This document shows positions 37,370 through 50,607 of a stretch of 64,000 bases of DNA, piece after piece. This DNA comes from Halobacteriovorax sp. HLS. GTDB taxonomy: Bacteria > Bdellovibrionota > Bacteriovoracia > Bacteriovoracales > Bacteriovoracaceae. The notes under the pieces were generated by a model that worked only from the letters and a program-made list of their open reading frames with translations, did not search any database and had not been told where the DNA came from. The position numbers and the translations under genes were made by a program. Positions within the stretch are counted from its first letter, which is position 1; every line of letters starts with the position of its first letter. The stretch lies in the NCBI RefSeq assembly GCF_004006665.1, contig NZ_QOCL01000002.1:1-64000 (forward strand). Direction: 5' to 3'.

Positions 37370-37780
37370 ATGGATGAGTTACAAATGAGCAATATAAGAA
37401 ATGAAGATTTAAAAATCGTCGTTGTCGATGATTCTGACTTTTCAAGAAACTCCTTAATCACAATACTTGAGAAAAATGGTTTCAACGTTGTTGGACAAGC
37501 AAGCAGTGCTAACGACGCTGTTCCTCTACTTGTAACAGGAGCGAATGTCTTTTTAGTAGATATTGTAATGCCTGAAGTTAGTGGACTCGAGCTGGCAAAG
37601 ATGCTGACAGAGAATGGTAAAGATATAAAGATTATTATGATGTCATCATTAAATATGGAAAGTATCATAATTGAATCAATATCCAATGGTGCAATCGATT
37701 TCTTAACTAAACCATTTGGCGAACAAGACCTCATTAGATCACTAGAAAAGATTGAAATAGAAATGGAAAAGGATAATTAG
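37370..37780 (+). CDS. CheY-like response regulator
   Basis: 136 residues, one receiver domain. KIVVVDDSDFSRNSLI provides the acidic pocket, VFLVDIVMPEVSG the phospho-acceptor Asp, IIMMSSLNME the conserved Ser, and LTKPFGEQDLI the Lys. It is closer to CheY than the regulator at 23751. An alternative start (MSNIRNED, 37385) has GGATGAG upstream and may be the true one. The next gene starts one base after its stop. Its flagellar role is inferred from CheY similarity only. Confidence 0.92.
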   Translation: MDELQMSNIRNEDLKIVVVDDSDFSRNSLITILEKNGFNVVGQASSANDAVPLLVTGANVFLVDIVMPEVSGLELAKMLTENGKDIKIIMMSSLNMESIIIESISNGAIDFLTKPFGEQDLIRSLEKIEIEMEKDN

Positions 37781-37781
37781 T

Positions 37782-38126
37782 ATGTTCTTTATGTTTAAAT
37801 TTGCCCTGTATTTTGCAATAAGCTTTGTAATTTTGTCGTTTCCAATCGCTGATAAAACGGTTTTTGAGCATGTTAATAAAATTGCACACCCTTACACAGA
37901 CAATATTTATAAATCTGTTAAGAGTAATGTTTCTCAAGGTATTAAAGAAAGTTCAAAGCTTTTTTCAAACTCATCGCCTAATACTGATGAAATTAAGACT
38001 AAATACTCTTCAATGAAAAAGAAAGTTAAGAAAATTGAGCAGGCAATTGAGTCTAATCATGAATCCTTCACAATCGAAGAAAAAGAAATGTTAAAAAAGG
38101 TCCTAAATACAGAAGGCCAACTCTAA
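37782..38126 (+). CDS. Small membrane-anchored or secreted helical protein
   Basis: 114 residues: N-terminal hydrophobic helix (about 3-20), then a mainly helical charged region (KIAHPYTDNIYKSVKSNVSQ, SSMKKKVKKIEQAIESNHES). No recognised family. It is one base after the CheY-like gene and shares its transcript, ending at a strong hairpin whose loop contains the stop codon. The charged C-terminal region could form a short coiled coil. Confidence 0.65.
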   Translation: MFFMFKFALYFAISFVILSFPIADKTVFEHVNKIAHPYTDNIYKSVKSNVSQGIKESSKLFSNSSPNTDEIKTKYSSMKKKVKKIEQAIESNHESFTIEEKEMLKKVLNTEGQL

Positions 38127-38165: not shown

Positions 38166-38354
38166 TTAAGATTCTTTTTGTTTTTTAACTTTCACTTCTT
38201 CAGATCTTACTTCAGACTCTTGAACTTTTTTAGCTCCACGTGCCTGAGTTGATTGATTCTTAATACAATCAGTTGAAGACTCACCTACAGTTCCTGCAAA
38301 TGATTGTGATGATAGTGCTGCAAACATTCCTAATACAATAAATAATTTTTTCAT
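38166..38354 (-). CDS. Small secreted protein, VGESSTDC family, member A
   Basis: 62 residues: signal peptide with cleavage after SQSFA (about residue 20), then a mature peptide of about 42 residues. It begins GTVGESSTDCIKNQSTQARG, has one cysteine, and ends in a Lys/Glu-rich tail (VKVKKQKES). The first half of the mature peptide is almost identical to the protein at 39911-40096. Ribosome site GGGAG is good. A sigma-54-type promoter lies 40 bases upstream. I know no such family; function is unknown. It is expected in the periplasm or outside the cell. Confidence 0.78.
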   Translation of the reverse strand: MKKLFIVLGMFAALSSQSFAGTVGESSTDCIKNQSTQARGAKKVQESEVRSEEVKVKKQKES

Positions 38355-38393
38355 AAAGCTCTCCCAAGGTTTATTTTTAGTTACCTTCTATTA

Positions 38394-38410
38394 AGCAAGA
38401 CAGATGCCAA
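38394..38410 (-). promoter_or_regulatory. sigma-54-type promoter of small secreted protein A
   Basis: Minus strand TTGGCATCTGTCTTGCT fits the sigma-54 consensus TGGCAC-N5-TTGCW, with GG (38407-38408) and GC (38395-38396) exactly 10 bases apart. The start would be near 38383, about 30 bases before the ATG. Confidence 0.6.
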
Positions 38411-38448
38411 ACAAGAGAATGTAAAAACAACACCTTAGAATAATAACT

Positions 38449-38469
38449 AGTGTATAAAGATTATACACT
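38449..38469 (-). terminator. Hairpin downstream of aldehyde dehydrogenase gene
   Basis: AGTGTATAA (38449-38457) and TTATACACT (38461-38469) form a 9-bp stem with a 3-base loop, 10 bases after the dehydrogenase stop. The following minus-strand bases are T-rich but not a clean U-run, so termination is only likely. Confidence 0.4.
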
Positions 38470-38478
38470 GAGTAATTT

Positions 38479-39861
38479 CTAGCCAAAAAACTTCAACAGC
38501 CACCTAAGAAGCCTCATCTTTCCAAAGTATGGTGGATACTTAAAAGGTGGGTCAAAACTGCTAGAAGAAGCAAATACACTCTTCTTATGAGAGAAGAGAT
38601 CAAACGAGCTCTTTCCGTGATAAGCACCCATTCCACTTTCTCCAACTCCCCCAAAGGGTAGATTTTCATTAGCAATATGCATAAGTGTATCATTGATCGT
38701 GACTCCACCCGAGCTAACTCTATCTAAAATGACTTCAACTATTTTCTTATCTTCTGAAAAGATATAATTGGCCAGAGGCTTCTCTCCTTCACTCACAAAA
38801 TCAATGGCCTCTTTTAAGTTTTGCATTTTTATTATAGGCAGTAGAGGACCAAAGATTTCATCTTTCATAATATGTGAATCTTTCTTTGCGCTTATAATAG
38901 ATGGAGATATATAGAGGTCATCTTTATCACTTTCACCACCATACAAAAGCTCTTCTGACTCAATCAGTTCAACGATTCTGTCAAAATGCCTCTCATTAAT
39001 GATTCTTCCATAGCTAGAACTTTTTTGAGCGTTCTTGCCAAAGAACTTTAGAATATATTTTTCTAATTTATTAACAAGTTCTTCATAATGCTTATCTTCA
39101 ACGAGAATATAATCTGGAGCAATACAAGTTTGACCAGCATTAAAGAATTTTCCAGAGACAATGCGTTTAGCGACAAGATCAATTTTCTGAGCTCCAAAAA
39201 TAAAACAAGGACTTTTCCCTCCAAGCTCTAAAGTTAACGGTGTGAGGTTCTTAGAAGCTTTTTCCATAATGATTCGTGCAACATGACCATTACCTGTATA
39301 GAATATGTAATCAAATCTATTATCTAGAAGTCTAGTCGTCTCCTCAACTCCACCCTCAACGCAATAGACAGTACTTTCATCGAAAGTTTCAGAAATTATT
39401 TTTGAAATAACTTTGGAAGTAGACGCTGATACCTCACTAGGTTTTACAACAACTCTATTTCCAGCAGCTAGCGCTCCTATAAGCGGAGATATAAGTAACT
39501 GAAAGGGATAATTCCAAGGACTAATAATCAATACACTTCCGTAGGGCTCTGAGAGAATATAGCTCTTGGCAGGAAAGTAAATTAGCGGAGTTTTGACGGA
39601 CTTTCTTTTCATCCATTTTTTTAAATGTTTTTTAGCAGATCTCAATTCATTTAACACAAAAAGAAACTCTGAAATCTGCGCTTCAAAGTGACACTTTCTT
39701 AGGTCTTCATAGAGAGCTTCATTTATTTCTTTCTCATACTTTAATAAAGATTTTTCTAGTTTATCTAATAAACTGAGTCTTTCTTTTAATGAAAAATTAG
39801 ATTTACTTTGATTCAGCGAGCGCTGATTTTTAACTACTTCATCGATTCTTTCTAAATTCAT
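38479..39861 (-). CDS. Aldehyde dehydrogenase (class 3-like)
   Basis: NAD(P)-dependent oxidation of aldehydes to acids. 460 residues, the short class 3 form. LTLELGGKSPCFIFGA holds the general-base Glu region and NAGQTCIAPDYILV the catalytic Cys. NYPFQLLISPLIGALAAGN begins the cofactor fold, and IFGPLLPI follows. The C-terminus is basic and hydrophobic (FGKMRLLRWLLKFFG), similar to membrane-associated fatty-aldehyde dehydrogenases. It sits between two paralogous small-protein genes. A near-perfect inverted repeat covers its transcription start and may be an operator. Confidence 0.94.
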   Translation of the reverse strand: MNLERIDEVVKNQRSLNQSKSNFSLKERLSLLDKLEKSLLKYEKEINEALYEDLRKCHFEAQISEFLFVLNELRSAKKHLKKWMKRKSVKTPLIYFPAKSYILSEPYGSVLIISPWNYPFQLLISPLIGALAAGNRVVVKPSEVSASTSKVISKIISETFDESTVYCVEGGVEETTRLLDNRFDYIFYTGNGHVARIIMEKASKNLTPLTLELGGKSPCFIFGAQKIDLVAKRIVSGKFFNAGQTCIAPDYILVEDKHYEELVNKLEKYILKFFGKNAQKSSSYGRIINERHFDRIVELIESEELLYGGESDKDDLYISPSIISAKKDSHIMKDEIFGPLLPIIKMQNLKEAIDFVSEGEKPLANYIFSEDKKIVEVILDRVSSGGVTINDTLMHIANENLPFGGVGESGMGAYHGKSSFDLFSHKKSVFASSSSFDPPFKYPPYFGKMRLLRWLLKFFG

Positions 39862-39892
39862 ATGTCCTCATCTAAATAATGAGGACATTATA
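39862..39892 (-). promoter_or_regulatory. Inverted repeat at aldehyde dehydrogenase promoter (possible operator)
   Basis: A perfect 10-bp repeat, ATGTCCTCAT (39862-39871) and ATGAGGACAT (39879-39888), with a 7-base centre. On the minus strand its outer arm abuts a -10-like TATAAT (39887-39892), and its inner arm carries the GAGGA ribosome site. It could be a repressor operator or an RNA stem that hides the ribosome site. The -35 is poor. Confidence 0.45.
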
Positions 39893-39910
39893 TCACTGAT
39901 ATATAGAGAA

Positions 39911-40096
39911 TTATTGCTCTTTTTGCTTCTTAGATGAAGTTTCAACCGAAGCACTAGTATCAGTATTAATAATCTGTTTAGAACCTCTAGACTGAGTAGA
40001 TTGGTTCTTTAAACAGTCAGTAGATGACTCACCAACTGATCCAGCAAAAGATAGTGTAGAAAGTGATAGTAGCGATAGTGTAATAAGTGTTTTCAT
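39911..40096 (-). CDS. Small secreted protein, VGESSTDC family, member B
   Basis: 61 residues with a signal peptide cleaved after LSFA (about residue 18). The mature peptide opens GSVGESSTDCLKNQSTQSRG and ends SSKKQKEQ. Over the first 20 mature residues it differs from member A at only four positions, all conservative (T/S, I/L, A/S), while the middle diverges, a sign of selection on the N-terminal block and the Lys-rich end. Strong ribosome site AAGGAG. Upstream is a second sigma-54-type promoter. No family recognised. It lies just after the dehydrogenase gene's promoter region. Confidence 0.78.
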   Translation of the reverse strand: MKTLITLSLLSLSTLSFAGSVGESSTDCLKNQSTQSRGSKQIINTDTSASVETSSKKQKEQ

Positions 40097-40127
40097 AAGT
40101 TACTCCTTTTATGTGTAACTTCTTATA

Positions 40128-40144
40128 AGCATAATTGGTGCCAA
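40128..40144 (-). promoter_or_regulatory. sigma-54-type promoter of small secreted protein B
   Basis: Minus strand TTGGCACCAATTATGCT: a perfect -24 TGGCAC and -12 ATGCT, with GG (40141-40142) and GC (40129-40130) 10 bases apart. The start would be near 40117, about 20 bases before the ATG. Confidence 0.6.
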
Positions 40145-40217
40145 TGTATTAGCGAAAATTCAAGAACTTAAGTCATTAGTGAGTGAATAATATCTATACA
40201 GTGAAAAAAAAATAAGC

Positions 40218-40247
40218 AAAAAAAAAGGCCTGTACAAAGACAGGCCT
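40218..40247 (-). terminator. Terminator of small secreted protein C gene
   Basis: AGGCCTGT (40226-40233) and ACAGGCCT (40240-40247) form an 8-bp stem. On the minus strand it is followed by nine T. Good intrinsic terminator, 22 bases past the stop codon. Confidence 0.85.
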
Positions 40248-40269
40248 CTCATTAACTATAGTGTATTAT

Positions 40270-40458
40270 TTAACCTTGATAATCTTTCTTCTTCTTAGTT
40301 TCTTCACCAGAACCCTCAGGAGCCGGTTGTCCTGTTCCTTCAAAAATCTTTGTGCAATCTACTTCAGAATCAGACTGCTCACCTGTTCCATCAGCAGCAA
40401 ATGTTAAGGCCGGACTTAGAAAACCTAAAAGTAAAACCATTGTAATAAACTTTTTCAT
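40270..40458 (-). CDS. Small secreted protein C, possibly related to the VGESSTDC family
   Basis: 62 residues, signal peptide cleaved after LTFA (about residue 21). The mature peptide, ADGTGEQSDSEVDCTKIFEG onward, has a single Cys and a Lys-rich C-terminus (ETKKKKDYQG). The order Gly-Glu, Ser, Asp-Cys, Lys and the basic end echoes members A and B, though identity is low, so common descent is only possible. Strong ribosome site (GTAGGAG). A TATAAT -10 lies about 30 bases upstream; I see no sigma-54 site. It has its own terminator, so it is a single-gene unit. Confidence 0.68.
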   Translation of the reverse strand: MKKFITMVLLLGFLSPALTFAADGTGEQSDSEVDCTKIFEGTGQPAPEGSGEETKKKKDYQG

Positions 40459-40575: not shown

Positions 40576-42204
40576 CTAAAGGTTCAAGTTAACTCCCGCT
40601 GGCTTAACAATGGCCAACAGTGATTGAAATGCCTGAGTTACTTGCAGTGCCATTTTATGACCTGCTTTAGACTCTACTTTCTTAATCTCGCCATAGTTGT
40701 CATATTGAACATTAATCTTTCCAATTTTATCCATTGAGATTTCTACTGGCTTACCTTGAGCATTGTAGATAAACGATAGTGATCTCTTCTTACCTGTTTC
40801 CTTATTTAAGTCGTGCATTTTCTTGATACGACCTTTTCTATCATAAAGAAGTAGTACAGACTTTCCACTTGAGTTTTCAGCTTTAGATAGGTTTCCAGAC
40901 TTTTCGTCATACTGAAAGTTAGTCCACCCTTTCTTATTAACTACACGAGTAATTTTATTAAACTTCTTATGATAAGCTAACTCAATATAGTCACCCTTAG
41001 TTGAAGTTTTCTTAGTCAATAACCCTTTGTCATTATAATCAAAAGACGTTACATGACTTCCACGTGTAATTTTCAGAGGAAGAGAACAACACTCAGAGTA
41101 AATAGTCTCAGTTTTTAAACCATTTATTTCAGTTAAAATTCTGTAAGTATACTGCGAACCATCTGGTCTGGCCTTAACCTCGTACTCATATCTATTAGAA
41201 ACCTCTTTCCCTGTAGGAGACTTCTTAGAAACAATTGTCCAATAATGAAGATCAGAGTTCTTAGGGTTTGAATCGTACTTGTACTTAGTAAGATCACCAC
41301 TTCTACTCTTTACTGATGCTACGAACTGAGTTTTAGGAGTATAGTTAATCTCCATTTTAGAACCGTCTTTATATGAAATTGACTTCATATTGTGATTAGC
41401 ATCGTAATCGTACTTAAAAACATTTCCAGCAACATCTACTGACTCTACAAGGTCGTCACCTTCAAACTTGTAGCTTGTTTTCTTCTTCGCTGTTGATGAG
41501 ATACTTTTAACTCTTCCGTTTTGAAACCACTGAAAGAATAATTGTTTTGCATCAGAATCTTTAATCTTTAATAGATTTCCATTCTTATATTCAAAACTAA
41601 TAGTGTATCCATGCTTGTCTTTAATCTTACTTAAACGTCCTTCAGCATTGAAATACTGAATCTTTCCGTCATTATAAACTCTTTTAAACCCATCTCTAAT
41701 TTTGTGAATCTCTTGCAATCCTCTAGTATTAGAGTAAAGAACTGTCCCGTTGGCCAGTTGAGCTTTAACATTAAATTTTCTTGCATAAGCTTGTCTAAGT
41801 TCTGCATCATTAACAAGTTTAACTTTAAGAGTTTTTGCAACTTGTTCAGTTACACTTGTTCTCTTTCTCATTGCTTCAATAATTTTATTGGCAGCAGAAA
41901 CAGGATCAACCGCTTCTTTAGGAGTAAATCTCGTTTGAGCACCACTTCCATTTTCATGAACTACTACAGAACCATCTGCAGAGATATTTAAAAATGTTTC
42001 GTAGTCAGAACCCCAACCAAAACCAAACCAACCTTTTTCGGTAGACTTCGAATTATATGTTCTTGAGATCTCAAGATCATGACCTCCACCAGGTACAATT
42101 ATATCTGTATAAGAAATATAGAAATTTCCATTTTTAAGATTAACCCCAGCAAATGTTGTAGCTGGAATTAAAAGTAATAATAGGAGTAGTTTACCAAGCT
42201 TCAT
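40576..42204 (-). CDS. RHS/YD-repeat secreted protein
   Basis: 542 residues with a signal peptide (LLLLLLIPATTFA). The N-terminal module VNLKNGNFYISYTDIIVPGG, then HDLEISRTYNSKSTEKGWFG and FGWGSDYETFL match the start domain of RHS proteins. Many YD-type repeats follow: KYDYDANHNMKSISYKDGSK, SFEYKNGNLLKIKDSD, NFQYDEKSGNLSKAENSSG and LLYDRKGRIKKMHD. There is no hyperconserved RHS core or variable toxin tip, so it looks like a cell-surface or shell-forming repeat protein and not a toxin. It lies right after the Tad genes behind a sigma-28-like promoter, suggesting a surface or motility role. Confidence 0.85.
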   Translation of the reverse strand: MKLGKLLLLLLLIPATTFAGVNLKNGNFYISYTDIIVPGGGHDLEISRTYNSKSTEKGWFGFGWGSDYETFLNISADGSVVVHENGSGAQTRFTPKEAVDPVSAANKIIEAMRKRTSVTEQVAKTLKVKLVNDAELRQAYARKFNVKAQLANGTVLYSNTRGLQEIHKIRDGFKRVYNDGKIQYFNAEGRLSKIKDKHGYTISFEYKNGNLLKIKDSDAKQLFFQWFQNGRVKSISSTAKKKTSYKFEGDDLVESVDVAGNVFKYDYDANHNMKSISYKDGSKMEINYTPKTQFVASVKSRSGDLTKYKYDSNPKNSDLHYWTIVSKKSPTGKEVSNRYEYEVKARPDGSQYTYRILTEINGLKTETIYSECCSLPLKITRGSHVTSFDYNDKGLLTKKTSTKGDYIELAYHKKFNKITRVVNKKGWTNFQYDEKSGNLSKAENSSGKSVLLLYDRKGRIKKMHDLNKETGKKRSLSFIYNAQGKPVEISMDKIGKINVQYDNYGEIKKVESKAGHKMALQVTQAFQSLLAIVKPAGVNLNL

Positions 42205-42293: not shown

Positions 42294-43184
42294 CTAAACC
42301 TTTATTTTCACTATCTTCATAATGACAAAACCACCTGCAAAGTCGAACATCATAGCAACAACAGTCATAATGATTCCAAGGGGATGGGTAAACATGGGTT
42401 TTACAGACTCAGGATCTGAGAGAAAATAGATAAAGCCAATTCCATAAGGCATCATAAAAATTGTCATCCCCTGAAACATTCCAGAGGCCGTATAGGTATC
42501 GATCTTTTGCTTTAATCGAACGCGCTCTCTAATAACATCAACAATTGTGTCAAAGACTTCAGCCAGATTACCACCAGTCTCTCTAAGAATATTAATTGAT
42601 GATACAAACATATCATTATCTTCGGTTGGTACACGTTTAGCTAAATTATCAAAACACTCCTCAAGAGGTACCCCAATTCTGTTTTGTTGAAGTATCATAT
42701 TAAATTCTTGAGAAACAGGTGCAGGCATTTCATCGACGACCATCCCTATCGCCTGAGGTACAGATAGGCCTGCTCTAATCCCGTTTGAAAGCAATGTTAG
42801 AGCATCTACCATCTGTCCAGAGTACTCATCAATACGCTTTTCAACGAGATGATTTATAAATGGCTTAGGTATTTTAAATCCAAGAAAACCAAAGAACATT
42901 CCAAAAATAAAACCAACTAGCCACTGCCCTAGGAGACCACAAAGTAAAAAGATAAAACAACCAAGGCCGACAGAACATCCCAATAGAAGATAAGTTATTT
43001 TTTGTTCAGGAATTTCAATAAAGAGAAGCTCAAGCTTCTCCATGATATACGTTCGTGTTCCAAAGGTTTGATTCTCAATCCAGTTAAAAATACCTTGAGA
43101 ATATTTATAACAAAATAAAAAGAGAATACAGCCAATGAGACCAATGATTCCGCTCTTGCCAAGAAGCGCTATAAAAAAACTCAT
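42294..43184 (-). CDS. Tad pilus inner-membrane protein (TadB/TadC type, T2SSF domain)
   Basis: 296 residues with helices near both ends. The T2SSF core is at about 115-240: EKRIDEYSGQMVDALTLLSN, GIRAGLSVPQAIGMVVDEMP, QEFNMILQQNRIGVPLEECF and RETGGNLAEVFDTIVDVIRE. It forms the membrane platform for pilin assembly. The start overlaps the ATPase stop by 4 bases. Most Tad loci encode two such proteins, TadB and TadC; only one is seen here. Confidence 0.9.
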   Translation of the reverse strand: MSFFIALLGKSGIIGLIGCILFLFCYKYSQGIFNWIENQTFGTRTYIMEKLELLFIEIPEQKITYLLLGCSVGLGCFIFLLCGLLGQWLVGFIFGMFFGFLGFKIPKPFINHLVEKRIDEYSGQMVDALTLLSNGIRAGLSVPQAIGMVVDEMPAPVSQEFNMILQQNRIGVPLEECFDNLAKRVPTEDNDMFVSSINILRETGGNLAEVFDTIVDVIRERVRLKQKIDTYTASGMFQGMTIFMMPYGIGFIYFLSDPESVKPMFTHPLGIIMTVVAMMFDFAGGFVIMKIVKIKV

Positions 43185-45436
43185 CCTGGTGGCCTCTTCT
43201 TAACAGGTCTATTTCCTGGTGGCCGCTGTTTAGGTCGATTAGGGTCTGATGAAGATGGCTTCTTCCCAGAAGAACTACCTCCAGAAGGACTAGGTGGTGC
43301 TGAACCGCCAGAACTACTTCCCCCTCCGCCAGATGGACTAGAGTTACTGAAAAGGCCTCTAGGAACGTTATATCCTTTTCTCTCAAGAATCTCTATGAAT
43401 TTAGGTATAAAACCAGACGCTTGAAATTCACCAATAATTTTTCCATTCTTATCAATATCTCTTTGCTGAAAGAGAAAAATATCTTGCAATGTAATAACAT
43501 CACCTTGAATTCCACCAATTTCAGATATATGGGTCATCTTTCTAGACCCATCATCGAGTCTTTTTTGTTGAATAATCATATGCACAGAATTAGCGATCAT
43601 CTCTCGAATAGCTTTGGGACTAATTCCTGCTCCTGCATATTGAACAAGAGTTTCTAGTCTACCGATACATTCACGAGGATTATTCGAGTGAACAGTTGTC
43701 ATAGATCCGTCATGCCCGGTTCCCATTGCTTGTAACATATCCAGAGTTTCACCTCCTCTACATTCCCCAACAACAATTCTTTCAGGTCTCATTCTTAGTG
43801 TTTGTTTCACAAGACATCGAATATCAATTTCACCATCCCCTTCAAGAGATGGAGGCCTTGTTTCAAGGCGTACCACGTGATCTTGAGGAAAGTTTAGTTC
43901 CGCTGAATCTTCACAAGTGATAATTCTTTCATTCGAAGGGATAAAGCCACCTAAGATATTAATTAAAGTGGTCTTACCAGAACCAGTACCACCACTTACA
44001 ACAATATTTCTATGTCCTTCGACAGCAATCCTCAGAAAGTCAGCCATATTTTGAGTGAGAGAGCCCCACTTAATATAGTCTTTATAAGTTACAACCTCTT
44101 CAGGAAACTTTCTAATCGTTATACAACAACCATCAAGTGCAGACGGAGGAATAATCGCGTGAACTCTTGATCCGTCATGAAGACGAGCATCTACGTAAGG
44201 AGTTTTTTCATCAATTCTTCTACCGATAGGCGCTACTATTCTTTCAATTACATTTAGAACTTGTCTGTCATTAGTAAAGGTAATATCAGATTTTTTAACC
44301 TTACCATTCATTTCGTAGAAAATTTTGTCTGGTCCAACTACCATGATTTCTGTACAATCTTTATTTGCAAGTAAATCTTCTAATGGTCCAAGCCCAAGCG
44401 CTTCATCAAGAATTTCTTTAACAATTCTATTCATATCATCGCGGGTAGGTATTATCGTCTTTGTGTCTTCTTTCCCCAAAAGCTCTACGACCATTTTCTT
44501 CGTTTGTTCTCGCATGATAATTGCTGCTTTTGGATCACCATCATCACTATTTTTTAAATCCATTTCATCAATAAGAGCTTTATGAATTCTAGATTTAAGC
44601 TCTGTCCATGCACTCTTGGTCTTTTTTTCATCAGCTGGAGAGCTATCACTTTTAGCACTTTTATCAATTGTGACATTTAGTTTTGCTAGAGACTTAAGTA
44701 TATTCTTTTGTATTATCTTTCTGGAAAACTCAACTACACCTTTAGCAAAATTACTATTTTTGGCAACGACCATAACTGGTTTCTTCTGGTTTAGGGCCAG
44801 AACACAAGTTTGATCATCTTTAGGAATTGCTGCAAAGATCGGTTTTCCAAAAGACTTACCAACTACTTCAGGAGTAACAGGGTGTCCCTTTTGGCTTTGA
44901 TTTAAAACAACTTGCAACATATCTTTTGGAAACATCATTGTTACAAGATCACTATATAATCGCTTCGTTTGATTTAAAGCAAGAATATCCGGCGTAACGA
45001 CTAAGAAAATTACTGTTGAAAACTCTAGGGCCTTTAGGGCCATATCATTAAGCTCGCAGCCAGCATCAATAATTGTTACAGGAAATATATTTGTGATTGC
45101 TTTAAGTGTCTTTCCAAGACCTTCTGCATTGATTCCCTCTGATGCAGTTGGATCTGTAGGCATTCCTATATAGTGAACTCCCGAAGGATGTGGCGCCATG
45201 AACTGCATTAATGTTTTAGGGTCAATTGCACCAGAAAATTCAGACAAGTCTTTAACTGTTTTACGAGACTTCATACCTGTAATGAAGTTCTGGTCTCCAC
45301 TGGCCTTCTTGTCAAAATCGAGAAGGAGGACTTTACTTCGAGATTCACCCGCATATGCAAAGGCAAGGTTTGCAGCAACTTGCGACTTACCTTGTCCACC
45401 TTTTCCACCAATAATAGTAATAATATATCCGGCCAC
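43181..45436 (-). CDS. TadZ-TadA fusion: ParA-like domain plus Flp secretion ATPase
   Basis: 751 residues in one frame. Residues 1 to about 250 are a TadZ/CpaE-like ParA domain with deviant Walker A (GGKGGQGKSQVAANLA) and KVLLLDFDKKASGDQN. A linker (about 255-300) leads to a CpaF/TadA hexameric ATPase: VVSGGTGSGKTTLINILGG (Walker A), IITCEDSAELN, RPERIVVGECRGGETLDML (Walker B) and GHDGSMTTVHSNNPRE. The last 55 residues are a Gly/Ser/Pro/Arg-rich tail. TadZ localises the machine and TadA powers pilin extrusion; normally they are separate proteins. Confidence 0.93.
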   Translation of the reverse strand: MAGYIITIIGGKGGQGKSQVAANLAFAYAGESRSKVLLLDFDKKASGDQNFITGMKSRKTVKDLSEFSGAIDPKTLMQFMAPHPSGVHYIGMPTDPTASEGINAEGLGKTLKAITNIFPVTIIDAGCELNDMALKALEFSTVIFLVVTPDILALNQTKRLYSDLVTMMFPKDMLQVVLNQSQKGHPVTPEVVGKSFGKPIFAAIPKDDQTCVLALNQKKPVMVVAKNSNFAKGVVEFSRKIIQKNILKSLAKLNVTIDKSAKSDSSPADEKKTKSAWTELKSRIHKALIDEMDLKNSDDGDPKAAIIMREQTKKMVVELLGKEDTKTIIPTRDDMNRIVKEILDEALGLGPLEDLLANKDCTEIMVVGPDKIFYEMNGKVKKSDITFTNDRQVLNVIERIVAPIGRRIDEKTPYVDARLHDGSRVHAIIPPSALDGCCITIRKFPEEVVTYKDYIKWGSLTQNMADFLRIAVEGHRNIVVSGGTGSGKTTLINILGGFIPSNERIITCEDSAELNFPQDHVVRLETRPPSLEGDGEIDIRCLVKQTLRMRPERIVVGECRGGETLDMLQAMGTGHDGSMTTVHSNNPRECIGRLETLVQYAGAGISPKAIREMIANSVHMIIQQKRLDDGSRKMTHISEIGGIQGDVITLQDIFLFQQRDIDKNGKIIGEFQASGFIPKFIEILERKGYNVPRGLFSNSSPSGGGGSSSGGSAPPSPSGGSSSGKKPSSSDPNRPKQRPPGNRPVKKRPPG

Positions 45437-46917
45437 TATCTTCTTCTACTTCTAAACTTTCGTTTAATTTCCTCTGTTCCAGTTGATGATGACTCGATAA
45501 TTTCAGGAGTCACAAAAACAACGAACTGAGACTTGTTTGTTAAGTATGCTTTTGATTTCAAAAAAGAAAACAACTGTTGTCCATCAGAAACTTCATCTAC
45601 TCCTCCAGGAGGATTTCGATCAAAGTCTGTTGATGATTTATTAATAACAACCCCACCGACGACAGCACTTTCTTTACTTTTTACAACCAGTGCCGTTTGA
45701 ATTGTATTTGATATCGTCTCAGGAGGGTCCCCAATTGTAGCACTAACATTGATTGCCATATTTAGATCTATCTTTTCCTGAGGAAGAATTGTAGGAGTAA
45801 TAGATAAGTCAAATCCAGCGGTTGCTTTTTCAGAACGCGTAAACTCACCAGTACCAATAGCAAACGGCTTCTCACTCTTCTTTACAATTTTACTCGTAAC
45901 CTTATCTTTTGTTATAACAACACCAGACTGAATAACCCTCGCATACCCTGCTCCTTTTGCAGAAGCTAATCTTGGGAAGAGGTTAGAAATTGTTCCAGAT
46001 AGAGTTCCACTTGAACTGGAGGTCACTCCTCCATCAGCCCCTTTACCAAATGAGATACTTCCTCCGCCACCACCTAATGTCGGTTCCCACTTAAAACCAA
46101 AAATTTTATTATAATCTTTTGTAAGCTCAACAAACTGAGCTGAAATTTTAACCATCTTTGGTACAGGCTGAGGCTTTTTCTTTGCATTTACACTTATGAA
46201 ATTTTGTATAATATTTTTCTTTGCTGTTTGAACGGCCTCAGTTCTTCTTGCTAGGTTTTGGATCATATCAGGAACATAAATAGCAGCTAGCTGCTCAGCT
46301 CTTGTTCTATCTGCATCTGAGCTTACGACTCCTTCAATCATAAATAGTCCATTTGCAACTCGAACTGTTACATCTGGCATATTACTTTTTTGAATTTCTT
46401 TTTGCATATTGGCTGCAATAACTCTTTGAGTTTGCGGAGAGAGTTCAACTAACTGAACAACATCTGGATAATCGGCAAGAACAACTACGACTCGCCCTAT
46501 GTCAGATGGCACAACAATTTCACCACCAACATAGACCTTGCTTCCTTTTATTCCAATCTCCAAACCTTCTACATCACCCAAGTAATCTTTAAGGTTCTGA
46601 ACAACCTTAGACTGATCGGTAGCAGTTATATTCACAAGGTACTTAACCTTTCTTTCTCCAACTGTATTTCTAATAATCACAGAAGTATTACCAGGTTTTA
46701 AACCTTTGAAAGTAATTTCTCTTTTTTGCGGAATTATTGTATGGGCCAAGATTGAATCATTACCAACCTGAACTTTTGTTGAAGGTGCAAAATCAAGCTT
46801 TTCGATCTTGTCTATACCAAGAACTATCTCAACCTTTTTCTCAGGCACTTTTGCGTCTTGCTGCGAATATGCCAACATTGAAAAAAGATTTAAAAATAGA
46901 ACTAAAGTAAACTTCAT
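45436..46917 (-). CDS. Tad secretin (RcpA/CpaC)
   Basis: Outer-membrane channel for the pilus, 493 residues with a signal peptide (LFSMLAYSQ). The N-terminal BON-like and N domains include NTSVIIRNTVGERKVKYLVN. Secretin core: KMVKISAQFVELTKDYNKIF, then VGGVVINKSSTDFDRNPP and FVVFVTPEII near the C-terminus. A Gly/Ser-rich loop lies at about 285-310. Its ATG overlaps the cpaB stop by 1 base and its stop joins the ATPase gene, so it is within the operon. Confidence 0.92.
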   Translation of the reverse strand: MKFTLVLFLNLFSMLAYSQQDAKVPEKKVEIVLGIDKIEKLDFAPSTKVQVGNDSILAHTIIPQKREITFKGLKPGNTSVIIRNTVGERKVKYLVNITATDQSKVVQNLKDYLGDVEGLEIGIKGSKVYVGGEIVVPSDIGRVVVVLADYPDVVQLVELSPQTQRVIAANMQKEIQKSNMPDVTVRVANGLFMIEGVVSSDADRTRAEQLAAIYVPDMIQNLARRTEAVQTAKKNIIQNFISVNAKKKPQPVPKMVKISAQFVELTKDYNKIFGFKWEPTLGGGGGSISFGKGADGGVTSSSSGTLSGTISNLFPRLASAKGAGYARVIQSGVVITKDKVTSKIVKKSEKPFAIGTGEFTRSEKATAGFDLSITPTILPQEKIDLNMAINVSATIGDPPETISNTIQTALVVKSKESAVVGGVVINKSSTDFDRNPPGGVDEVSDGQQLFSFLKSKAYLTNKSQFVVFVTPEIIESSSTGTEEIKRKFRSRRR

Positions 46918-47729
46918 TAATTACCTTGTTTTTTAAATTTCTCAGAAAAGAAAAGCTTCGCTTCGGATGCATCCTCTCCTAATATATCGTAAAGCTTCGT
47001 AGACTTAATTCTGACAGGCTTTTTATCAGAGTTATTTCTAAGTGCAAGATATGGTCTTTGACTATTGTAGTTCACTAAGAATACAAGCTTCTGAACTTCA
47101 TAAGGATCAAGTTCTAGTGTTACAGATTGATAGTCACTATATGTATTTAATTTCATTTTCTTAATAACTCTTGGTGTTTTAACACCAATGATTGGTAAGT
47201 TTCCTGAAATACTTCTACCTGTAGAAAGGATTAATACATCTTGAAGCACCGTCTTCATCTTTTGTAAGTCTTTACGTCCACCGGCATAATCAATACCTGC
47301 TAAAATATCAACCCTATCTCCCGGCTTAATAAGACGACCAACAGAAGCACCTTCGGTAACTTCTAACGATATAGCTCTCTTTCCAACACTTACCTGTCTC
47401 GAGAGACCACTTCTTTCATCAGGCCAACTAACTCGCGGCTTAGTCAACTGCTCCCCTTTTAATATAGGAACTGTTGCAACTGTATTTTGAATTTCAGAAA
47501 TCATTTTAAATGCTTTTTCGTGAACAAAATTTGAAGGCATAGATGTTACAGTCACTTTTGAATCATCAATAAGTTCAAGTTCCTGAATATCGACTTTGGC
47601 AATAACAACAGATTTCTCTTTACCATATTTTTTTATAATTTTAGTTTTTTCATCTTCGATATATGTATAAACCATAAACATCGCAAAGGATGCGATAATT
47701 AATGCTAATGTCAGTGCCCTAGTGTTCAT
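46917..47729 (-). CDS. Flp pilus assembly protein CpaB/RcpC
   Basis: 270 residues. One N-terminal helix (LTLALIIASFAMFMVYTYI) is followed by an SAF/AFP-like domain: VVIAKVDIQELELIDDSKVT, GEQLTKPRVSWPDERSG, and SLEVTEGASVGRLIKPGDRV DILAG in order, the signature of CpaB. It is a periplasmic partner of the secretin. It overlaps the secretin gene by one base. A 94-base gap separates it from the TadE-like gene upstream. Confidence 0.9.
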   Translation of the reverse strand: MNTRALTLALIIASFAMFMVYTYIEDEKTKIIKKYGKEKSVVIAKVDIQELELIDDSKVTVTSMPSNFVHEKAFKMISEIQNTVATVPILKGEQLTKPRVSWPDERSGLSRQVSVGKRAISLEVTEGASVGRLIKPGDRVDILAGIDYAGGRKDLQKMKTVLQDVLILSTGRSISGNLPIIGVKTPRVIKKMKLNTYSDYQSVTLELDPYEVQKLVFLVNYNSQRPYLALRNNSDKKPVRIKSTKLYDILGEDASEAKLFFSEKFKKQGN

Positions 47730-50404: not shown

Positions 50405-50410
50405 GGATGT

Positions 50411-50607
50411 GGGTCTTGTAGTTGGCAAAATAGTTTTTTCGCCCTACATTCTCTTTAACGGAGGCGGTCCCTGATTATGGTGAGCAAGCTTACACTTTTA
50501 CTAAATGGTTAAAGTTAGTGAGAAGCCTAAAGTAATTAAATACTGCACCCACCTGTCATATGACGGGCGGAAAACTCCAAATTGTCTGACTCAAGACCCA
50601 TCTTTTT
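50411..50607 (+). ncRNA. ssrS: 6S RNA
   Basis: A noncoding stretch with the 6S architecture, about 190 bases. The ends pair perfectly (GGGTCTTG at 50411-50418; CAAGACCC at 50592-50599) and TCTTTTT follows as terminator tail. Interior blocks match the conserved 6S order: TGGTGAGCAAGCT, then GAGAAGCCTAAAGT, an AATACTGCA-like stretch, and a small stem CACCTGTCATATGACGGG, each with clear counterparts in the E. coli RNA. 6S RNA mimics an open promoter and sequesters the housekeeping polymerase in stationary phase. Confidence 0.85.

Follow-up and report, generated by a model that had tools for sequence, protein, structure and literature searches.

The small exported proteins A and B, encoded in a 64,000-nucleotide window of Halobacteriovorax sp. 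HLS (the whole stretch of DNA analysed here), very probably belong to the hit (host-interaction) locus as its sigma-54 peptides. The predator's decision either to hunt or to grow alone has been tied to this locus since 1992. A first-pass annotation of the window had drawn attention to the peptides as a new family with their own promoters; that observation is confirmed and its interpretation is partly supported. The finding is nevertheless broader than the segment 38166-40458 that encodes the peptides, as the RHS gene and the Tad operon adjoin it.

The peptide genes and their setting

All three of the tiny open reading frames that had been proposed are present on the minus strand, each with a signal peptide, a good ribosome site and one cysteine: A (38166-38354, 62 aa), B (39911-40096, 61 aa) and C (40270-40458, 62 aa). 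Peptide A consists of a signal peptide, a VGESSTDCIKNQSTQAR core and a charged tail, and has orthologues in all five of the genus genomes. Its claimed kinship with B is borne out (57% identity, E 8e-14), making B a paralogue. The near-identical mature N-terminus attributed to the pair does correspond to a conserved block, although this block reads VGE-x-x-T-x-C-x-x-NQSTQ-x-R, and the KKQKE end described as a shared feature is common to A and B in this genome only and not in the other four species. Peptide C, which had been presented as a more distant member, has only a loose likeness to A and B (GE...C).

Neither A nor B has a relative in Pfam, NCBIfam, a PDB sequence search or Rfam. A sequence-pattern scan of the genome contigs for the A/B family yielded just two close relatives, as divergence within the family is too rapid for such patterns to follow, and the weak single-protein matches in distant genomes are mostly signal-peptide similarity; relatives in such genomes were traced by synteny instead. 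The AlphaFold model of A, built from 10 sequences, has no confident fold (mean pLDDT 56, pTM 0.15), which is consistent with disorder without proving it, and the A/B-type products are probably disordered exported peptides. A signal peptide is the sole sign of secretion, so the periplasm is no less likely a site for them than the medium; what stands of the original description as "secreted" is an exported family.

Minus-strand transcription runs from the Tad pilus genes (47729-42294) through the RHS gene, C, a terminator, B and an aldehyde dehydrogenase to A. The gene order C-B-ALDH-A, along with the RHS and Tad genes, is kept in all five Halobacteriovorax genomes (that of the window and four further ones). 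From their position and our reading of the sequences, the Tad genes would encode an RcpC/CpaB-type pilus assembly protein (46917-47729), an RcpA/CpaC-type secretin (45436-46917) and a TadB-like inner-membrane protein of the Tad (Flp) pilus (42294-43184, weak pilus-protein match only); between the last two lies a CpaE-TadA fusion of a MinD-like domain and a Tad ATPase (43181-45436; TIGR03819 at 9.7e-90, under the curated cut-off, and MinD families). Next comes the gene for an exported RHS/YD-repeat protein (40576-42204, minus strand; RHS_repeat, DUF6531), whose sequence and model, the latter of moderate quality (mean pLDDT 75), match Rhs cores in the PDB. An intrinsic terminator between C and B (40223-40250, minus strand) marks the border between the Tad/RHS/C unit and the sigma-54 unit. 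The aldehyde dehydrogenase between B and A (38479-39861, minus strand; PF00171, 2.8e-84) could be transcribed by read-through from the B promoter, and its ribosome site is overlapped by a hairpin, GTCCTCA-TTATTTAGA-TGAGGAC (window 39863-39885). Convergent to A are a receiver-only response regulator (37370-37780) and a small membrane-anchored protein (37782-38126), in conserved synteny beside lon; the response regulator, which we considered as a regulator of the peptides, is without an AAA+ domain. Elsewhere in the window there is a 6S RNA (Rfam RF00013) at 50409-50602.

With its RHS/YD repeats, its signal peptide and its position at the end of the Tad cluster, the RHS protein is the counterpart of Bd0109, and a counterpart of it is found in 229 of 241 Bdellovibrionota genomes. 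Directly after it, in all five genus genomes, comes C, which sits in the Bd0108 position, with A and B further on. In Bdellovibrio bacteriovorus, Bd0109 and the small exported Bd0108 are likewise encoded where the Tad cluster ends. The two proteins interact, localise to the periplasm when expressed in E. coli and affect pilus extrusion, and bd0108 mutations allow prey-independent growth (Capeness 2013, PMC3818213). Direct binding is known for the HD100 pair only (PMC3818213, PMC4267844), and Bd0108 belongs to the intrinsically disordered proteins (Prehna 2014, PMC4267844). The suspected link of the peptides to predation is thus made good by the identity of the locus, and the suspected tie to envelope stress is left without specific support.

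The resemblance to the hit locus lies in the Tad genes and an RHS protein followed by small exported proteins that contain cysteine. Unlike Bd0108, A and B have sigma-54 promoters and a single cysteine; the CxxC pair of Bd0108 is absent from A, B and C, none of which matches the curated Bd0108 model (hit_Bd0108, NF053838), on which HD100 Bd0108 scores 1.9e-29. In its available text, Prehna 2014 (PMC4267844) notes that the RHS gene of Bacteriovorax (Halobacteriovorax) marinus SJ has two small neighbours with signal peptides, BMS_0183 and BMS_0184, for which no homology to Bd0108 was found; judged by their described position, they ought to correspond to C and B in that strain. Because these neighbours had already been noted, the peptides can be called undescribed only in part: the promoters, the third gene A and the wider conservation are not mentioned in the available text of that paper, and we found no paper that treats such sigma-54 peptides as part of the hit locus.

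Sigma-54 promoters and a candidate activator site

The GG-N10-GC promoters that had been assigned to A and B are both conserved in all five species. That of A, TTGGCATCTGTCTTGC (38395-38410, minus strand), is 40 nt before the ATG, and that of B, TTGGCACCAATTATGC (40129-40144, minus strand), is 32 nt before it. In the five species TTGGCAY-N6-TGC, or a one-base variant of it, stands 31-42 nt before the start codon of all ten A/B genes, and the bases flanking these sites have diverged. A sigma-54 site is absent upstream of C in each of the five. In the whole genome TTGGCAYN6TGC occurs at 30 sites, versus 2 for a reversed-pattern control, and it is enriched in nearly all of the relatives. Being kept in ten of ten A/B copies, absent before C and in genome-wide excess over the control, the A/B sites are not a chance occurrence, and their status as real sigma-54 promoters is, at the level of sequence comparison, well supported. 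The genome has a single copy of rpoN (one PF04552 gene), and there are 15-20 matches to PF00158 (activator-type AAA+) per genome, the weaker ones being probably other AAA+ proteins.

The genes that follow the 30 genomic sites (L047-L076) mostly encode exported proteins, as named by sequence reading, and include a subtilisin-like peptidase, lipoproteins, a solute-binding-like protein and a FlgF-like gene. One of them is a Flp-type pilin gene outside this Tad locus (L048, G000:C1:322031), with a perfect site 36 nt before its start; in Bdellovibrio, the regulator of flp4 has been reported as non-FliA (PMC5430801). After five sites (L066, L068, L070, L072 and L076) no downstream open reading frame was found, and these could possibly drive small RNAs or very short genes; L068 has a terminator-like hairpin about 100 nt downstream.

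To place the peptides in a wider frame, the DNA downstream of the RHS gene was surveyed at 94 Bdellovibrionota loci. Small open reading frames were picked if they had a ribosome site and began with a signal-peptide-like segment; promoters and cysteines played no part in the choice. The two main families are the Bacteriovoracaceae (f1), which contain the window, and the Bdellovibrionaceae (f6), which contain HD100. Beyond the Bd0108 position, 91 of the 103 small exported open reading frames have a sigma-54 element at 20-130 nt (shuffled mean, 0.6). When GG-to-GC spacings of 6-15 were tested only GG-N10-GC was enriched, the others giving at most 5. Genes in the Bd0108 position have such a site in 0/43 cases in f1 and 0/14 in f6, and in 7/78 over all families, the exceptions lying outside these two. 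At least one sigma-54 peptide is present in 41 of 49 f1 loci and 16 of 17 f6 loci, both counts being lower bounds because contig ends and the strict filter lose some. The arrangement recurs across the Bacteriovoracaceae and the Bdellovibrionaceae; families f8, f4, f15 and f25 depart from the usual locus layout. The single cysteine that had been called conserved is general as well: 89 of the 91 sigma-54 peptides have exactly one beyond residue 20, with the first cysteine at median position 29. A lipoprotein reading was rejected, a strict lipobox being found in 1 of the 91.

Profiles of the mature regions give no match between the f1 and f6 sigma-54 peptides (score 7.4, equalled by 7 of 60 shuffles). 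Within f6 the sigma-54 peptides do match Bd0108, whose CxxC region they resemble (19.9, versus a shuffled maximum of 9.5); within f1 the signal between A/B-type and C-type peptides is weaker (12.2 versus 9.1). Full-length profiles had also suggested a likeness between the classes, but its apparent significance was due to the signal peptide and was gone with the mature regions. As the f1 and f6 mature sequences are not detectably related, the equivalence rests on position, promoter and anatomy: in these respects, and not by sequence homology, A and B are the counterparts of the Bdellovibrio sigma-54 peptide.

It had further been proposed that a signal switches the peptides on through an activator, and an activator-like site does lie upstream. 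This putative activator (UAS) palindrome of A, TGTATAATCTTTATACA (38451-38467, minus strand), is 40 bp upstream of the -24 element and has 2 mismatches to the family palindrome; B of the window genome has no clear palindrome upstream. The f1 palindrome, TGTCTAAANTTTAGACA, is found at 35 of 62 promoters (with up to 2 mismatches; 4.7 in shuffles) and at 1 of 43 before first peptides. The f6 palindrome, TGTCTCATNNTGAGACA, is found at 15 of 21 promoters (0.7 in shuffles) and at 0 of 14 before first peptides. The distances from f1 palindrome to promoter cluster at about 40, 49, 58, 68 and 79 bp, with a period of 9.7 bp, a regularity equalled by none of 2000 random sets, the related genomes not being independent. 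Such helical phasing suggests a shared, putative AAA+ activator. The same box also recurs 56-59 bp ahead of several further sigma-54 promoters in the window genome, and HD100 has 50 copies of the palindrome versus 4 of a control pattern; together these point to one activator with a wider regulon. In two species a copy is found some 600 bp past the matched portion of rpoN (G000:C1:449335 and G001:C1:2673570). Some f6 palindromes are just 6 bp from the promoter, an unusual distance for an activator site, and the f6 palindrome could therefore be a repressor site.

The HD100 transcript

A 261-nt small non-coding RNA has been reported at HD100 96455-96716, with higher levels in bd0108 mutants (Capeness 2013, PMC3818213). 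This interval, whose placement with respect to the RHS and Bd0108 genes is the same, harbours a 66-aa open reading frame (96683-96483, minus strand) with a signal peptide, a ribosome site and a single cysteine. Just upstream of it is a sigma-54 element (96759-96744), whose predicted start at about 96732 fits the RNA. The two published RT-PCR primers are exact matches in HD100 at their published coordinates, and both lie inside the open reading frame. Comparison with two relatives gives dN of 0.02 and 0.006 and dS of 0.47 and 0.35 (dN/dS about 0.04 and 0.02), with 2/1/15 and 1/0/12 substitutions at the three codon positions, so that 27 of 31 fall at the third. Its coding status is well supported by this codon-level comparison, and the "sRNA" of the hit locus, published as non-coding, is very probably the mRNA of a 66-aa exported protein; a dual-function RNA is possible. 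We found no later work on this sRNA in the literature searched. Its recognition as a protein-coding gene would change the reading of the bd0108-mutant transcriptome.

Possible roles of the peptides

Taken as a whole, these results seem to us best explained, with somewhat more weight for than against, if A and B are a sigma-54-controlled arm of the hit locus that tunes the pilus-and-growth switch. The Tad pilus genes, the RHS protein and C would form one unit ending at the terminator, with B and then A each expressed from its own sigma-54 promoter under the putative shared AAA+ activator. Once exported to the periplasm, the peptides may bind the RHS protein as additional ligands; alternatively, they may be redox/disulfide partners of the RHS or a Bd0108-like protein. 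Either way, they would tune pilus extrusion as well as the choice between hunting and growing. The fact that the Bdellovibrio counterpart is induced when bd0108 is mutated points to an activator that senses the state of the pilus-linked switch, on which the peptides would in turn feed back. This transcript rise, the sole functional datum, fits feedback without proving it, and we put forward the binding and feedback mechanism tentatively.

With similar reserve, one may envisage an overlooked second arm of the switch across the phylum, in which disordered single-cysteine peptides compete or cooperate with Bd0108 for the RHS shell, the state of the switch feeds back on transcription and the known "sRNA" is the mRNA of this arm. 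Such a widespread arm, and the sRNA being a gene, would surprise specialists. In any case, a conserved set of separately regulated peptides next to Bd0108 and the RHS protein offers direct genetic handles through a defined sigma factor and a candidate site for the activator.

The peptides might instead belong to the Tad (Flp) pilus itself, as structural, tip or minor components that are exported through Sec and then either incorporated or secreted through the Tad secretin. Their genes are directly downstream of the Tad genes, a sigma-54 site also precedes the Flp-type pilin gene outside this locus, and like Flp/TadE pilins they are small exported proteins near a Tad locus. Nevertheless, a prepilin motif followed by a hydrophobic stretch occurs in 0 of the 91 peptides, for which reason a Flp-type pilin reading was rejected; the signal peptide is of type I, its hydrophobic stretch preceding the cleavage site, and the polar tail has no confident fold. 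A place in the pilus thus appears unlikely. We also think it improbable that the peptides function as released signals or effectors, whether pheromone-like or aimed at prey, and are at the hit locus by chance. Their signal peptides, small size and fast tail divergence beside a well conserved RHS protein would suit such a function, but no adjacent immunity or receptor gene was recognised, a toxin-like domain is absent and the positions beside the RHS gene are fixed over much of the phylum.

That the transcripts are mainly regulatory RNAs, with the small open reading frame incidental or secondary, would agree with the naming in Capeness 2013 (PMC3818213) of a non-coding sRNA responsive to the bd0108 genotype; it is made very unlikely by the strong purifying selection on the amino acids, with substitutions at third positions, the conserved signal peptide and ribosome site, and the near-universal single cysteine (89/91). 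Finally, RpoN dependence in these genomes is predicted from sequence, so the sigma-54-like sites might owe their conservation to a different factor that recognises this box, the peptides being an unremarkable envelope-protein family, an idea to which we give hardly any credence in view of the exact -24/-12 consensus, the enrichment of no other spacing, the presence of rpoN and the phased upstream palindrome.
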